A stretch of 49,130 bases of DNA, from contig JACRKA010000014.1 in NCBI GenBank assembly GCA_016219905.1, positions 1 to 49,130 on the forward strand, read 5' to 3'. The notes beneath the pieces were generated by a model. That model searched no databases. It worked only from the letters and a program-made list of their open reading frames with translations, and was not told where the DNA came from. This stretch comes from Verrucomicrobiota bacterium. Its GTDB lineage: Bacteria > Verrucomicrobiota > Verrucomicrobiia > CAIQCK01. Both the position numbers and the translations under genes were made by a program. Shown here one piece after another: positions 30,657 through 36,880 of this stretch (its first letter is position 1; every line of letters begins with the position of its first letter).

Positions 30657-30687
30657 TTGCAGACAGTGCGGCACTTCAGGCTATAAA
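30657..30687 (+). promoter_or_regulatory. Possible promoter for apbE
   Basis: TTGCAG at 30657-30662 and TATAAA at 30682-30687 are separated by 19 bases, longer than optimal. If real, transcription would begin near 30694, just before the ATG at 30696, which would make the mRNA almost leaderless and exclude the ATG at 30687. Low certainty. Confidence 0.35.
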
Positions 30688-31751
30688 TGCGTTGCATGAA
30701 CAACGGCAACCGAAACCGGCTTTCCCTCCGGCTGCTCACGCTCGTCCTGCTGGTCGGAGCCGCCTGCGACGCCCCCGCAGCCGGCCGCGTCCTCCAACGC
30801 CTGGAGTTCATCGAGCCGCACATGGGCGCCCTCTTCCGCATCGTCCTTTACGCGCCCGACGCGGACACCGGCAGCAGCGCCGCCACTGCTGCGTTCCAGC
30901 GCATCAAGGCGCTGAACCGGATCATGAGCGACTACGATCCCGACAGCGAACTCATGCGCCTCTGCAAACAACCCGCCGCGGTCCCGGCGCGCGTCAGCAA
31001 CGACCTCTTCGACATCATCCGCAAGTCACAGGAGCTCGCCCGCCTCAGCGTCGGCGCGTTCGACATCACCGTCGGCCCGCTCGTCCGCCTCTGGCGCACC
31101 GCCCGCCGCACCCACACCCTCCCCGCGCCTGAAGCGATTGCTGCTGCCAAACAACGCGTCGGCTGTCAGAAGCTGAAGCTCGATCCTTCGCGCAAGACCG
31201 TCACGCTCCTCGCGCCCGATATGCAACTCGACCTCGGCGGCATCGCCAAGGGCTACGCCGCCGACGCCGCCCTCGCCGTCCTGCGCCAGCGCGGCATCCG
31301 CAGCGCCTTCGTCGCCGCCAGCGGCGACATCGCCATCGGCGACGCGCCGCCCGGCATGGCCGGCTGGAAGATGGGCATCGCCTCGCCCGCCGGCGATGAC
31401 AAGCTCGCCGCCACCGTGCTGCTGCGCAACGCCGCCGTCTCCACCTCCGGCGACATCGAGCAGTTCGTGGACATCGGCGGCACGCGCTATTCGCACATCG
31501 TGGACCCGCGCACCGGCCTTGGCCTCACCGACCGCCTCCAAGCCTCCTTCATCGCCCGCAACGCCACCACCACCGACGCCCTCGCCACCGCGCTCTGCGT
31601 CATGGGAACAAAACGTGCAATCAAGCTCGCTGACTCGTTGCCCGACGCCGCAGCGTTCCTTGTGAGGCCCGGCCCCAACGGCAACGAAACCACCGCCTCA
31701 CGCCGATTCGATAAGTTCCGCGCCCCTGCCTCATCGCTGCCGAAGAAGTGA
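30687..31751 (+). CDS. apbE: FAD:protein FMN transferase (ApbE family)
   Basis: Attaches FMN covalently to Thr of exported flavoproteins such as NqrB/C or RnfG, using FAD and Mg. The 354 residues start with a signal peptide (LSLRLLTLVLLVGAACDAPA), possibly a lipoprotein signal at VGAAC though the lipobox is imperfect. Family motifs: EPHMGALFRIVLYAP, LNRIMSDYDPDSEL, VGAFDITVGPLV, LDLGGIAKGYAADAAL and SHIVDPRTGLG. The ATG at 30696 is an alternative start. No flavoprotein substrate gene lies next to it. Confidence 0.93.
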   Translation: MRCMNNGNRNRLSLRLLTLVLLVGAACDAPAAGRVLQRLEFIEPHMGALFRIVLYAPDADTGSSAATAAFQRIKALNRIMSDYDPDSELMRLCKQPAAVPARVSNDLFDIIRKSQELARLSVGAFDITVGPLVRLWRTARRTHTLPAPEAIAAAKQRVGCQKLKLDPSRKTVTLLAPDMQLDLGGIAKGYAADAALAVLRQRGIRSAFVAASGDIAIGDAPPGMAGWKMGIASPAGDDKLAATVLLRNAAVSTSGDIEQFVDIGGTRYSHIVDPRTGLGLTDRLQASFIARNATTTDALATALCVMGTKRAIKLADSLPDAAAFLVRPGPNGNETTASRRFDKFRAPASSLPKK

Positions 31752-31764
31752 GTTCGGTCGCAGA

Positions 31765-31826
31765 GTGGGCCGTGCGTCCCGCACGGCCAATCAATCATTG
31801 ATGGCCGTGCCGGAGGCCCGGCCCAC
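31765..31826. repeat. Composite palindrome overlapping the 3' end of the ThiF-like gene
   Basis: Outer arms gtgggcc (31765-31771) and ggcccac (31820-31826) enclose an 8 bp hairpin ggccgtgc/gcacggcc (31768-31775 and 31781-31788) and a central near-palindrome ggccaatcaa...ttgatggcc (31785-31806, one bulge). It sits between convergent apbE and the ThiF-like gene and runs into the latter's coding end. It is the same kind of element as the cluster at 14.9-15.1 kb. Probably a bidirectional terminator or mobile palindromic unit. Confidence 0.75.
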
Positions 31827-32570
31827 CCTGCCACACACCGCGCAATCTTCCCGTCGCGCGGTCTTCAGCCGCCGGAACTCCATCGTCTCCAGGTCCATCG
31901 CCAGCAACACGCCGGCCAGCGTCTCGCCGATGCCCGTGATCAACTTGACGACCTCCATCGCCCCGATGCACGCCGCCGTGCCCGGCACCGCGCCGATCAC
32001 CGGGAACTGCCGCTTCCACGTCGCCGGCTTCTCCGGGTAAATGCACCGCAAGCAAGCCGTGCGGCCCGGCAGGATTGTCGTCACATACGCCTCCAGCGAA
32101 TACATCGCGCACTCCACCATCGGCTTGCCCAGCCGGACCGCCGCATCGTTCAGCGCGAACCGCTCCTCGAACAACGGCGCGGCGTCCACCACCACGTCCG
32201 CCTGCGCCACGAGCCGCTTCGCGTTCGCTTCGCTCACGTTCTCGCCAACCGCAACCACGTCCAGTCTTGGGTTCAACTCGCGCAAACGGCGCGCGATGGA
32301 CTCGATGCGCGGCTTGCCGATGTGGTCGTGCGTCTGCAAAAGCTGGCGGTTGAGGTCGGCGGGCTTGAGGTTGCCGCCGTGCGCGATCACCAGCCGGCCC
32401 ACGCCCGCCGCCGCCAGTTCGTAAGCCACCAGCCCGCCCAAACCGCCGCACCGCGACACGAGCACCGACGCGCCCTTGAGCTTGCGCTGGCCCTCCTCGC
32501 CGAAGCCCGGCACCCACATCTGCCACTCGTAGATGGCGCGTTCCTCGGGAGTGAGTTCCGGCAGGCTCAT
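31791..32570 (-). CDS. ThiF/MoeB/HesA-family E1-like protein, divergent ATP site
   Basis: A 259-residue protein of the family that adenylates ubiquitin-like sulfur carriers (MoaD, ThiS). It has SRCGGLGGLVAYELAAAGVG (39-58), the arginine finger NRQ (74-76), Asp129 and two zinc CxxC pairs (Cys173/Cys176 and Cys243/Cys246). The ATP-ribose region, normally LxDxDxVxxSN, reads VIAHGGNLKPADLN, so both Asp residues are missing. ATG 32570 overlaps the ABC ATPase stop (ATGA); upstream codons are not conserved. The last ~10 residues are encoded by a palindromic repeat. Role: perhaps molybdopterin-related because of the transporter, but no MoaD gene is present. Confidence 0.8.
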   Translation of the reverse strand: MSLPELTPEERAIYEWQMWVPGFGEEGQRKLKGASVLVSRCGGLGGLVAYELAAAGVGRLVIAHGGNLKPADLNRQLLQTHDHIGKPRIESIARRLRELNPRLDVVAVGENVSEANAKRLVAQADVVVDAAPLFEERFALNDAAVRLGKPMVECAMYSLEAYVTTILPGRTACLRCIYPEKPATWKRQFPVIGAVPGTAACIGAMEVVKLITGIGETLAGVLLAMDLETMEFRRLKTARREDCAVCGRVGRASGTAIND

Positions 32571-33232
32571 CGCGGGTCGCCCATCCCGCGCGCATCGCAC
32601 TCGCAAACGCGCCCCGCATCGAGCCGGAACAGCGCGTCGGCCAGTTGCGCCGCCTCGCGCCGGTTGTGCGTGACGTGCAGCACCGTCACGCCGTGCTGGA
32701 ACTGGATCGTCTTCAACAACGCCCCCATCTCGTCCCGCGTCTCCTCATCGAGCGCCGACAGCGGCTCGTCCAGCAGCAACACCTGCGGCCGCGCCGCCAG
32801 CGCCCGCCCGAGCGCGACCCGCTGGCGTTCGCCGCCGGAAAGGCCGGGCGGCCGACGGTCCAGCAGATGCGCAACGCCCAACTGCCCGGCCAGTTCGTCC
32901 ACGCGCGCCGCGACCTCCTCCGCCGGCCGGCGCCGCAGCCGCAGCGCAAACCCGATCTGCTCGCGCACGCGCATCGTCGGGAACAACGCGCCGTCCTGCG
33001 GCACGTAGCCGATGCCGCGCCGGCCGGGTGGCTCATCCGTCACGTCGCGCCCGCCGATCCACACCCGCCCCGCCGCGGGCCGCCGCAGGCCGCAGATGAT
33101 CTCCAGCAAACTCGTCTTGCCGCAACCGGTCCGGCCCATCAGCACGCTGTAGCGCGCCTCCGGTGCCGTGAACGCCACGCCGTCCAGCTTGAAGGCTGCC
33201 GCGTGCCATGCGATGTCATCGAGCCGGATCAT
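32567..33232 (-). CDS. ABC transporter ATPase of molybdate/tungstate (ModC-like) type
   Basis: A 221-residue ATPase. Walker A GRTGCGKT (33-40), Q-loop GYVPQDGALFP, signature LSGGERQRVALGRAL, Walker B VLLLDEPLSALD and H-loop VLHVTHNRREA are intact. The C-terminal TOBE/MOP regulatory domain of full-length ModC (~350 residues) is absent. I chose ATG 33232 (MIRLDDIAWH); the frame extends 32 codons further, but that part is translation of the intergenic 8-base repeats. It energises the permease encoded upstream and overlaps the ThiF-like gene. Confidence 0.92.
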   Translation of the reverse strand: MIRLDDIAWHAAAFKLDGVAFTAPEARYSVLMGRTGCGKTSLLEIICGLRRPAAGRVWIGGRDVTDEPPGRRGIGYVPQDGALFPTMRVREQIGFALRLRRRPAEEVAARVDELAGQLGVAHLLDRRPPGLSGGERQRVALGRALAARPQVLLLDEPLSALDEETRDEMGALLKTIQFQHGVTVLHVTHNRREAAQLADALFRLDAGRVCECDARGMGDPR

Positions 33233-33240
33233 GGGAAATT

Positions 33241-33336
33241 GGAGTGATGGAGTGACGGAGTAATGGAGTAATGGATTCGGAGGGATTGAGTCGTCAATCC
33301 CCAACACTCCAATACTCCAACGCTCCAATACTCCAT
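33241..33336. repeat. Inverted arrays of an 8-base unit flanking a central hairpin, inside the ABC operon
   Basis: The left arm 33241-33275 is four tandem copies of ggagtRaY plus gga. The right arm, about 33301-33335, is four copies of ccaayRct plus cca, which reads ggagtRtt-like units on the other strand. Between them lies a perfect 8 bp hairpin gggattga-gtcg-tcaatccc (33282-33301). The whole forms a roughly 95-base imperfect palindrome between the permease and ATPase genes. It could control relative expression or be a selfish repeat. It is not a CRISPR: the units are too short and there are no spacers. Confidence 0.85.
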
Positions 33337-33338
33337 TG

Positions 33339-34136
33339 TCATACCCTTTCCCCCGCCAGCCTCACGCCGATCAGCACCACCATCGCCAGCCCGACCATCA
33401 ACATGCTGACGGCCACCGCCGCCTCCAGGTTGCCCACGCTCAACTCCAGCCACACGCTCGTCGGCAACACCTCCGTCTTCATCCGCGTCGCCCCCGCGAA
33501 CACCAGGATCGGCCCGAACTCGCCGAGGCTCCGCGCCCACGCGATGCTCGCCGCGGCGAACATCCCGCGCCGCGCCGCCGGCAGCGTCACCAGCCACACC
33601 GCCTGCCCGCGCGAACAGCCGAGCGTCATCGCCACGTCCTCCGGCCGCGATGAGAGATGGTCGAACGTCCCGTGCATCGTCCGGATGGCGAACGCCACGC
33701 CGATGATGAATTGCGCCAGCACCACGCCATAGACCGTATAGGTGAATGGCACCGCCCGTTCGACGATCTGGCCGAAGGGCGTCTGAAACAAAATCAGCAG
33801 GCACAGCCCCACCACCATCGGCGGCAGCACGATCGGGATGTCGAGCGCCGCGTCCAGCGCCGCCTTGCCGGGAAACCGTCCGCGTGAGAGCAGGTAGCCC
33901 ACCGGCACCGACACCAGCAGCGACAGCAGCGCGCTGACCGTGCACGTCGCGAGGCTCAGCATGATGGCATAACGGATTTCGCGCGAATCGAGCGCGTGAA
34001 GCAGCCGATCGGGCGAACTGTAGCTGGCCGTCGTGCCGAGCATCCCGACGATGAACAGCAGATAAAACCCCGTCACCAGCGACAGCCCGATCCAGAACGG
34101 CGACAGCCTCAACGTTTTCGGCGCAGCGGGCATCAA
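33339..34136 (-). CDS. ABC transporter permease of molybdate/tungstate (ModB-like) type
   Basis: A 265-residue inner-membrane permease with about six hydrophobic segments (IGLSLVTGFYLLFIVGML first). The cytoplasmic coupling motif is DVAMTLGCSRGQAVWLVTLPAARRG, the EAA loop of binding-protein-dependent importers, followed by ARSLGEFGPILVFAGATRMKTEVLP, typical of ModB/WtpB/CysT-like permeases. It would form the pore as a homodimer with the ATPase next door. It begins 15 bases after the tandem binding-protein gene; the next gene is separated by the 8-base repeat element. Confidence 0.92.
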   Translation of the reverse strand: MMPAAPKTLRLSPFWIGLSLVTGFYLLFIVGMLGTTASYSSPDRLLHALDSREIRYAIMLSLATCTVSALLSLLVSVPVGYLLSRGRFPGKAALDAALDIPIVLPPMVVGLCLLILFQTPFGQIVERAVPFTYTVYGVVLAQFIIGVAFAIRTMHGTFDHLSSRPEDVAMTLGCSRGQAVWLVTLPAARRGMFAAASIAWARSLGEFGPILVFAGATRMKTEVLPTSVWLELSVGNLEAAVAVSMLMVGLAMVVLIGVRLAGERV

Positions 34137-34151: not shown

Positions 34152-35717
34152 TCAGCCCTTCGTGCCCTTGTTCGGCCTGTCCGCGCCCGGCTGGCGCAGC
34201 CAGGGCGGCACGAAAATCTTGTCGCTCGGTGTGGCCGGCTCGTCGCCGCGCCAGCGGAAGCCCGCCGCTTCGAACCGCCCGCGGTTCACCTTCAGGAAGT
34301 CCAGCAGCCGCGACGCGAGCTGGTGGTTGGCCGAGTCGGCGCGCACCGAGAACGGCTGCGCCGCCTTCGCGCCGGCGTGCGCGATGTCAATCGCATCGAA
34401 GTGCTCGGCGACGGGCTGGACGTTGACGCGATAGACGATGGCCGCGTCCAGCGCCCCGGCTCGCATCTGGTTGATGAGGAAATCAGCCGTCGGCACCTCG
34501 ACGACGACGTTCTTCCGCACGGCGTCGTGCAGCGCCGACTGCCGCAGCATGCCGCGCGTCATGTAGCCGAGCGTGGACTGCTCGGCGTTGCAGAGGCCGA
34601 TGCGCAGGCCCGGCTTGGCCAGGTCAGCCATCGTGCGGATGCCATGCCGGTTGCCCTTCGGCGTCGCGATGACGATGTCGGTCTCCGTCAGCACGGTCGC
34701 CTCCGGGAAATGTTTCGCCACCGGCGGCACGAAGCAGAGGTCGCACGCGTAGTAGGCGTCCGGGAATTTCGGGTTGGTGCTGTCGCCCATCGTCTTCATC
34801 GCCGCGCAGAGGATGCCGCAGCCGTTGAACACCGTCGTGACCGTCACACCCTCGTGGTCGGCGAACTCCTTCAGCAGCTTCTCGATCGCCAGCCGGTTCA
34901 ACCCGCCGCTGTAGAGGATCATCTCCGGCTTCAACGCCCAGTGGTCGCCGGCGGCGGGCGTGAAGCCCTGATTCTTGAACACCGCCCCGCCCTTCTCCGG
35001 CGCGGCAAGGTAGCGCGCGAACCGCAGCGCCGCCGCCGGCTGCCGGCATGCCACGAGCACCGCGACACTGACATTCTCAATGCGGCCCGACAGCTCCGGC
35101 GCCTCGACGGCCTCGATGCCTTTGAACTGCGGCACGGTGCCGTCCCAGACTATTGCAGCGTCCACTGCGCCGATGGAAAGGTCGTTCGCGATCTCCGTCA
35201 CGGTCGGTTTCATCACCGCCGCGCGCGCCGCGAGCTTCGCCCACGTCTCACCACGCGCGGCCCGCGATGCGCGGCCGATGCTAGCGGCCTCCGGATTGGC
35301 CAGCTCCACGCGCACGTCGCCGCGCAGAAGGTCGGCCAGCGCGCGAACGGCCTTCGGGTTGCCCGCGCGCACGGCAATGACCGGATGCTGGCGGGCGATC
35401 GCAATCGTCTCGCGGACCGCGTCGAACTTGCGCGCGTCGGCGACCGCGCCGTCGTCGGCGGCGATGTAGAGGTCGCCCTGCTTCGCGACACGGATCGCGC
35501 TCAACATCGTGCCGCTGCCGCCGAATTGCAGGTTCACCTCGACGCCGAACTCGCGCCGGTAGTCCGCCGCGGCGGCCTCGACCGGCTTCTTGATGCCCGT
35601 CGCGCAATACACCGTCAGCGCCGACTCCGGCCGCGACGGCCCGCCGCCGCGCTGGAACCAGACGATGGCGGCAATGCCGATGGCGAGAGCACCCAGCAGA
35701 ATGGCAACAGGTCTCAT
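34152..35717 (-). CDS. Tandem-duplicated ModA-like solute-binding protein
   Basis: A 521-residue exported or membrane-anchored binding protein made of two ModA-type modules, ~34-255 and ~266-490, each about the size of a whole ModA. Residues 5-20 form a hydrophobic anchor. Module 1 has LTVYCATGIKKPVEAAA, LQFGGSGTMLSAI and GDLYIAADDG as in oxyanion binders. In module 2 the matching loop is FNGCGILCAAMKT (Cys300, Cys304) followed by YYACDLCFVPP (Cys325, Cys328), so the oxyanion Ser/Thr position is occupied by cysteine. The start is supported by GGAGGAAG before the ATG. It overlaps the preceding gene by ATGA. The ligands of the two modules may differ. Confidence 0.85.
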   Translation of the reverse strand: MRPVAILLGALAIGIAAIVWFQRGGGPSRPESALTVYCATGIKKPVEAAAADYRREFGVEVNLQFGGSGTMLSAIRVAKQGDLYIAADDGAVADARKFDAVRETIAIARQHPVIAVRAGNPKAVRALADLLRGDVRVELANPEAASIGRASRAARGETWAKLAARAAVMKPTVTEIANDLSIGAVDAAIVWDGTVPQFKGIEAVEAPELSGRIENVSVAVLVACRQPAAALRFARYLAAPEKGGAVFKNQGFTPAAGDHWALKPEMILYSGGLNRLAIEKLLKEFADHEGVTVTTVFNGCGILCAAMKTMGDSTNPKFPDAYYACDLCFVPPVAKHFPEATVLTETDIVIATPKGNRHGIRTMADLAKPGLRIGLCNAEQSTLGYMTRGMLRQSALHDAVRKNVVVEVPTADFLINQMRAGALDAAIVYRVNVQPVAEHFDAIDIAHAGAKAAQPFSVRADSANHQLASRLLDFLKVNRGRFEAAGFRWRGDEPATPSDKIFVPPWLRQPGADRPNKGTKG

Positions 35718-36811
35718 GGTTTCTTCCTCCGGCTCAAGCCGGCAATCATGGCGCCAAAGCCCAGCAGCACCACCGCGACGAGCCAACCCACCAGGCGCGA
35801 TTGGTCTTTCGGCGGCGGCGCGGCTTTCGGCTCCGCGCCCGTGATCACGACCGTCTCCGGCGCGGGCGCGTTCGTATTGGAAACGGAAGCCTTTGCCTCA
35901 GTGGCGGCCCCGGCAGTTTCCGCGGCCTTCTCCCGCGCTTCCTGCGCCTCCATCAGCTTCGCGTCCCAGTCCACCGCCATCAACAGGTCATAACCCGGAT
36001 TGGCCTCCTTCGCCTGGCACGAGCACGCTCCGAGCAGGAACATGCACATCTCGTCCACCGTCTCGTCCGACACCTCGCCCGCGGGCGCGACGCCGAGCAC
36101 CTTGCCGCGACCGAACACCGGCGCGACCACCGGCGCGCCCGCCGCGTCGGACTTCTCGGCCAGCGCCCACGTCAGCATCGCCACGAAAAACTTCTCAGCG
36201 GGGTCTGTCCGCGCCACGCGCAGCATCGAGAACTTCGCCTTCAGCGCCGGGCCGGGGCCGACCTGGCTGCTGGGATCGTTCGGGTCAATCTCCGGCAACG
36301 CCGCCACCGACTCGATGTATTTCAGCCGCTTCTCGATCGCCGCCGCCGCCGCGTCGTCCGCCGCGCGCTTGCCGCTCTCCACCAGCACCCACACGGCTGA
36401 TTCACCGGCGAGGATGCGCTTCGCCAGCTCGCGCCGGGCGGGGGAATCGGTCAACGCACGGAACACATCAGCCGTCAGCGGGCCGGACCAGATCGGCTTG
36501 TCGGGAGCCTGCGGCAACAGCAACCGCGCCGGACCATCGCTGGTTGCCGACTTGTCCTCCGTCGCCAGCAGGTTCAGGACTGGGTTCTTGCGCAACTCCG
36601 CAAGCAACGGCGCGATCTCCGCACTCTTCGCGACCGCCGCCGGCACGGCGAGTTGATAGGCGTCCGCTTGCCAGCGATCCAGCGCGTAACGGAACACCGG
36701 CACCGAGCAGGCCCGCGCATCCCCCGCGGCAGCGACCAGCCACGCCGCGCACGCCATCGCCGCGCCCAGCGTCATCCGCCCGCATCCAAGGTGGTGTTTG
36801 GAAGTAAACAT
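35714..36811 (-). CDS. Exported cysteine-bearing protein with C-terminal membrane anchor, first gene of ABC operon
   Basis: I do not recognise a characterised function. From ATG 36811 it has 365 residues: a signal peptide ending ...GDARA before CSVPVFRYALDRWQADAY, so the mature protein may begin with Cys35; a mixed, Ala-rich body; a cysteine motif MCMFLLGACSCQAKEANPG (Cys256, Cys263, Cys265); an Ala/Glu helical linker; and a membrane segment (~341-359) with a final RRKKP. It is probably a periplasmic domain tethered to the inner membrane. The stop overlaps the binding-protein start, so the two are coupled. The start is uncertain: Met at 36859 and 36775 are alternatives, none with a good ribosome site. 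Confidence 0.7.
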   Translation of the reverse strand: MFTSKHHLGCGRMTLGAAMACAAWLVAAAGDARACSVPVFRYALDRWQADAYQLAVPAAVAKSAEIAPLLAELRKNPVLNLLATEDKSATSDGPARLLLPQAPDKPIWSGPLTADVFRALTDSPARRELAKRILAGESAVWVLVESGKRAADDAAAAAIEKRLKYIESVAALPEIDPNDPSSQVGPGPALKAKFSMLRVARTDPAEKFFVAMLTWALAEKSDAAGAPVVAPVFGRGKVLGVAPAGEVSDETVDEMCMFLLGACSCQAKEANPGYDLLMAVDWDAKLMEAQEAREKAAETAGAATEAKASVSNTNAPAPETVVITGAEPKAAPPPKDQSRLVGWLVAVVLLGFGAMIAGLSRRKKP

Positions 36812-36880
36812 GTCAGTTTGAAATAATGCGCTATTACAGCCCATAATGCCAGTCCGCAACAGACTTCGGACTTGCGCCGC

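Follow-up and report, generated by a model that had tools for sequence, protein, structure and literature searches.

Organization of the locus

The window analysed here is a stretch of 49,130 nucleotides from a Verrucomicrobiota bacterium (contig JACRKA010000014.1, assembly GCA_016219905.1), which carries on its minus strand a gene for a tandem ModA-like substrate-binding protein of 521 amino acids (34152..35717; ATG at 35715-35717, TGA at 34152-34154). The protein starts with a hydrophobic segment that AlphaFold models as a helix (residues 2-23; 35649..35714, minus strand) and that probably serves as a membrane helix or uncleaved signal anchor. It is followed by two ModA-type modules, module 1 (residues 30-258; 34944..35630, minus strand), with conserved Cys38, Ser68 and Trp191, and module 2 (residues 259-500; 34218..34943, minus strand), which holds a set of cysteines. 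The Pfam family SBP_bac_11 (PF13531) is found twice in the product, in module 1 at residues 34-252; the two modules match each other in a profile-profile comparison (E 8e-26), and module 2 can also be aligned with E. coli ModA. The protein narrowly passes the ModA model TIGR01256 (66.4 bits, cut-off 62.5). AlphaFold models it with good confidence (mean pLDDT 89, pTM 0.84) in the fold of type II periplasmic binding proteins, the top Foldseek matches being ModA structures with TMt values mostly of 0.72-0.84.

The neighbouring genes on the same strand encode a ModB-like permease scoring just under the TIGR01581 cut-off (33339..34136), a ModC/WtpC-like ATPase recognized by family models (32567..33328) and, in the same operon, a MoeB/ThiF-type E1 adenylyltransferase (31791..32606). 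Upstream lies the gene for a conserved 381-amino acid partner protein (35714..36859, minus strand; start probably at 36775); this gene and the tandem gene overlap by four bases (TGA of the former, ATG of the latter). An ApbE (FAD:protein FMN transferase) gene (30687-31751, plus strand) is convergent with the end of the operon. The tandem gene product is best read as the substrate-binding component, doubled and membrane-anchored, of an ABC importer of the ModB/ModC type. No description of such a tandem ModA or of its gene cluster was found in the open-access literature, the coverage of which was incomplete, and a plasmid search returned ordinary ModA relatives only, in Azospirillum and Proteus.

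The cysteines of module 2

The tandem protein contains seven cysteines, at residues 38, 224, 300, 304, 325, 328 and 376. A reading of the DNA from sequence only had proposed that Cys300, Cys304, Cys325 and Cys328 occupy the oxyanion-binding positions of module 2, which could then hold a soft metal or thiol ligand while module 1 holds an oxyanion. The four residues are indeed located at these numbers, and at the local cysteine frequency at least four cysteines within residues 297-330 have a binomial probability of about 0.002; their conservation takes the clustering beyond chance. To assess conservation, genome contigs, relatives and a set of 388 genomes in the phylum were searched for homologues, which were read in their gene context; the figures below refer to module 2 of 57 tandem homologues and, for Cys38 of module 1, to 56 sequences. 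The sequence-only reading had made its proposal depend on such conservation, which is nearly complete for Cys325 (34743..34745), which follows strand three of lobe 1 (57/57), and for Cys300 (34818..34820; 56/57). It is partial for Cys304, one helical turn past Cys300 (34806..34808; 35/57, otherwise Val, Thr or Asn), and for Cys328, which forms a CxxC motif with Cys325 (34734..34736; 30/57). Two further cysteines had gone without mention: Cys38 of module 1, present in 91% of sequences, and Cys376, at the start of a loop in lobe 2 of module 2 that leads toward the lobe-2 ligand-contact position (34590..34592; 32/57). Another clade has its lobe-2 cysteine at position 381 in place of 376. Cys304, Cys328 and Cys376 occur mainly in one clade and tend to occur together, but as they are largely inherited within this clade their co-occurrence is weak evidence of contact.

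Which of these residues would touch a ligand can be judged by comparison with E. coli ModA, the molybdate contacts of which are S12, S39, A125, V152 and Y170. In a joint alignment Cys300 falls on Ser39, Cys304 on Ala43, Cys325 on Ala58, Cys328 on Lys61 and Cys376 on Gly118. Only Cys300 thus replaces a contact residue as had been proposed; Cys304, Cys325 and Cys328 are neighbours of contact residues and not contacts themselves. The register in which FGGSGTMLSAI of module 1 faces FNGCGILCAAM of module 2 is borne out by the profile-profile alignment, which places Cys325 on Ala87 and Cys328 on Gly90 of module 1, whereas the proposed pairing of GDLYIAADDG with ACDLCFVPPV is about four residues off, the true partner of the former being PDAYYACDLC. 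Conservation in module 2 is concentrated at the cleft loops (NGCG, ACD, NxExST and PTADxLxNQ). By alignment, all four cysteines occupy loops that line the cleft in the ModA fold, and homology suggests that their thiols face the cleft.

Neither module carries the full contact set of E. coli ModA. The residues at the positions of S12, S39, A125, V152 and Y170 are G41, S68, I147, V173 and W191, respectively, in module 1, and L273, C300, L383, A411 and Y429, respectively, in module 2. Module 1, proposed as the holder of an oxyanion, retains the Ser39 equivalent as S/T68, whereas Ser12 is replaced by Gly and Tyr170 by Trp; the Tyr170 equivalent is found in module 2 (Tyr429, 34431..34433, minus strand; 53/57), and the Ser12 equivalent is absent from both. 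An alternative to a thiophilic ligand is that the system imports molybdate or tungstate through a duplicated binding protein, its cysteines tuning affinity or stability and its cargo being the oxyanion. We regard this as rather unlikely. S/T68 and Tyr429 match known contacts, as this alternative would have it, and the best matches of the three importer components are ModA, ModB and ModC/WtpC models; however, the lack of a Ser12 equivalent in both modules and of the tyrosine in module 1 speaks against it. In the ModA of Acinetobacter baumannii the contacts are S39, S66, V150, V177 and Y195, and in ModA the oxyanion is gripped mostly by backbone N-H groups plus the tyrosine hydroxyl (PMC11734730). 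Because ModA binds its ligand largely by the backbone, a change of Ser to Cys alone does not exclude an oxyanion.

A further, quite doubtful possibility is that the cysteines are structural only, forming a zinc site or disulfide staple in a ligand-free spacer module. This would agree with the fact that three more contact positions of module 2 (273, 383 and 411) differ from those of ModA, but the conservation of the cleft loops and of the tyrosine is unlike that of a dead spacer, and the position of the lobe-2 cysteine shifts between clades.

Relation to known binding proteins

Among described systems ModA itself (TIGR01256; E. coli 1AMF/1WOD, Klebsiella 8K8L) is similar in the fold of the modules, in having ModB and ModC partners, in the Ser39-type position of module 1 and in the Tyr170-type residue of module 2. 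In contrast to ModA, the tandem protein has two fused modules, a membrane anchor and no Ser12 equivalent, in module 2 a Cys takes the Ser39 position and is joined by four others, and the system is retained in genomes without detectable molybdenum use (see below). The tungstate/molybdate-binding proteins TupA and WtpA are likewise type II binding proteins, and their permeases and ATPases are related, but they belong to other sequence families, and solved structures of the WtpA type are distant matches only. The arsenite-binding periplasmic protein AioX is a type II protein in which a thiophilic ligand is said to be bound through Cys; AioX is a single-module protein of the PhnD-type family and functions as a sensor, not as an importer. 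A. baumannii ModA shares with the tandem protein the ModA fold and the presence of non-canonical cysteines, which in that protein form a redox disulfide that weakens molybdate affinity from 0.177 to 30 nM (PMC11734730). This precedent raises the possibility of a redox switch, in which a disulfide in the cleft of module 2 would lower affinity upon oxidation and a thioredoxin-like partner would reset it. Such a switch seems improbable here. A. baumannii ModA is a single-module protein and its cysteines, C141 and C189, are at unrelated positions in lobe B and are described as specific to that species (PMC11734730). No equivalent of this pair was found in the tandem protein, whose invariant pair belongs to lobe 1 of module 2, Cys376 being the sole cysteine of lobe 2.

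A tree of 117 modules places all module 2 sequences in one clade (support 100/99) and sequences of the module 1 type in another. Some lineages (L110-L120, L139) contain two adjacent ModA-like genes that are unfused or differently fused, and the second protein type mostly carries a CHDP motif. In the tree the second proteins of the unfused-pair lineages form a third clade, mostly with this Cys-His motif at the same strand end, in the Cys325 region. A common clade of the CHDP-type proteins and module 2 was considered and rejected, as the tree keeps them apart.

Partner proteins and gene neighbourhood

Across Verrucomicrobiota the tandem binding proteins are accompanied by the 381-amino acid partner, in a recurring neighbourhood that comprises genes for a BamB-like protein, the partner, FtsX, LolD, the binding protein(s), ModB and ModC; some loci add MoaD-like and MoeB-like genes, and not all parts are present at every locus. 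Two features of the partner are invariant (35/35 sequences), a Cys at the N-terminus of the mature protein (CSVPVFRYALDRW) and a CxC motif (CSC here); the partner also has a C-terminal membrane helix. It matches no family above any cut-off, and its predicted model (pLDDT 83) weakly resembles thioredoxin-fold proteins (best E 0.005). This resemblance would suit the redox switch described above, although the motif of the partner is CxC and not the CxxC of thioredoxin.

The FtsX protein of the cluster contains an LxCxC motif that is invariant in 22/22 sequences. Within the 388 genomes, this LxCxC-FtsX is found in 28/33 genomes with the two-binding-protein system versus 6/355 others (Fisher p 8e-32), a value that, like the other p-values given here, is indicative, because the 12 unfused-pair genomes were picked by hand, the FtsX search query was built from loci of the same two-binding-protein system and relatedness among the genomes makes them non-independent. 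In the genome of the window, the FtsX/LolD pair, an LxCxC-type permease and a LolD-type ATPase, is encoded on another contig (L149:6215-7555, contig 50), where it adjoins genes for a TolC-like protein and for a heavy-metal exporter of the RND family, CusA/CzcA. At two other loci (L022:2599-5533 and L010:1-3316) genes that by eye encode a ZnuABC-like metal importer adjoin the tandem binding protein gene. The CxC motifs of the partners are left unexplained by a molybdate/tungstate importer.

At another locus (L102:11220-11480) the cluster includes, next to an E1-like gene, a gene for a small MoaD/ThiS-like protein ending in SPIAGG. The E1 and MoaD-like genes were considered as a thiocarboxylate metallophore pathway; this idea was dropped because E1 adjacency tracks the presence of MoaA. 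An E1/MoeB gene next to the system was found in 13 genomes, each of which is MoaA-positive, and in 0/14 MoaA-negative ones (p 5e-5), and the adjacent E1 and MoaD-like genes are therefore more simply read as cofactor genes. The restriction of this adjacency to MoaA-positive genomes also suggests that a tie to molybdenum is likely real in molybdenum-using lineages, as expected for a molybdate/tungstate importer.

Molybdenum use in genomes with the system

Association with molybdenum metabolism counts in favour of an oxyanion cargo. MoaA is detected in 17/21 tandem genomes versus 96/367 others (p 6e-7), and 18/21 tandem genomes lack a canonical high-scoring ModA. The genome of the window has MoaA, MoaE and PF00384 enzymes. 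A tungstate-binding protein of the TupA-like kind and a TupB-like permease, both below curated cut-offs, are also encoded there, separately on another contig (L056:1333-2937, contig 370); this pair could supply molybdenum or tungsten and counts against a molybdate/tungstate role of the tandem system. An Rfam scan found no element in the window, which therefore holds no Moco riboswitch.

The distribution of the system extends to genomes in which no molybdenum use is detectable. Four tandem genomes (G076, G174, G248 and G353) have no match for MoaA, MoaE, PF00384 or nitrogenase, and 10/12 unfused-pair genomes lack MoaA, with PF00384 not matched in those ten. In all, neither MoaA nor a PF00384 molybdoenzyme was detected in 14 system-bearing genomes, a call that rests on these two families in draft genomes that are 86-97% complete; PF00384 was matched in 6/6 MoaA-positive control genomes. 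At this completeness single absences mean little, but the agreement of 14 genomes on two families would be hard to explain by gaps and speaks against molybdate being the cargo in every case.

A possible thiophilic cargo

The best-supported ligand of module 2 is a thiophilic one, given that invariant CxC motifs are also found in the conserved neighbours and that no molybdenum use can be detected in 14 of the genomes with the system. We therefore propose tentatively, at somewhat short of even confidence, that module 2 may bind a soft metal such as Cu+, a metal-thiol or a thiol compound; copper is an example only, and the data do not indicate the identity of the metal. The conservation of Cys325 and Cys300, the monophyly of module 2, the Cys-bearing partners and the molybdenum-less genomes fit this reading best. 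Also counted in its favour are the location of FtsX/LolD beside CusA/CzcA, the separate TupA-like/TupB-like pair, the lobe-2 cysteine at 376 or 381 depending on the clade and the CHDP motif of the unfused second proteins. Against it stand the TIGR01256 pass, the MoaA enrichment, the E1/MoeB adjacency, the Tyr170 equivalent in module 2, the fact that Cys304, Cys328 and Cys376 are not universal and the backbone binding of oxyanions in ModA; moreover, cysteines in the periplasm may be present as disulfides.

If the cargo is thiophilic, the thiolates of lobe 1 (Cys300 and Cys325, aided in this protein by Cys304 and Cys328) and Cys376 of lobe 2 would close around it, and the shared permease would receive it from module 2. 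Module 1 would act as a second binding or docking module. The task of the thioredoxin-like partner and of the LxCxC FtsX/LolD complex would be to maintain the thiols in reduced form or to relay the cargo. The wider account, held with still less assurance, is that of a widespread and undescribed two-binding-protein importer of Verrucomicrobiota that might move a thiophilic cargo together with the LxCxC FtsX/LolD complex and the thioredoxin-like CxC protein, independently of molybdenum use.

Automatic annotation would label these genes as molybdate transport and count them as a sign of molybdenum use. Comparison reveals a distinct clade of binding modules, with near-invariant cysteines predicted to lie at the cleft and with co-occurring partners that carry Cys motifs, which is present also where no molybdenum-cofactor machinery is detectable. 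Should the cargo be a soft metal or metal-thiol, the ModA fold would be put to a new use here, and members of a large environmental phylum would share a so far unexplored pathway for handling metals or thiols.
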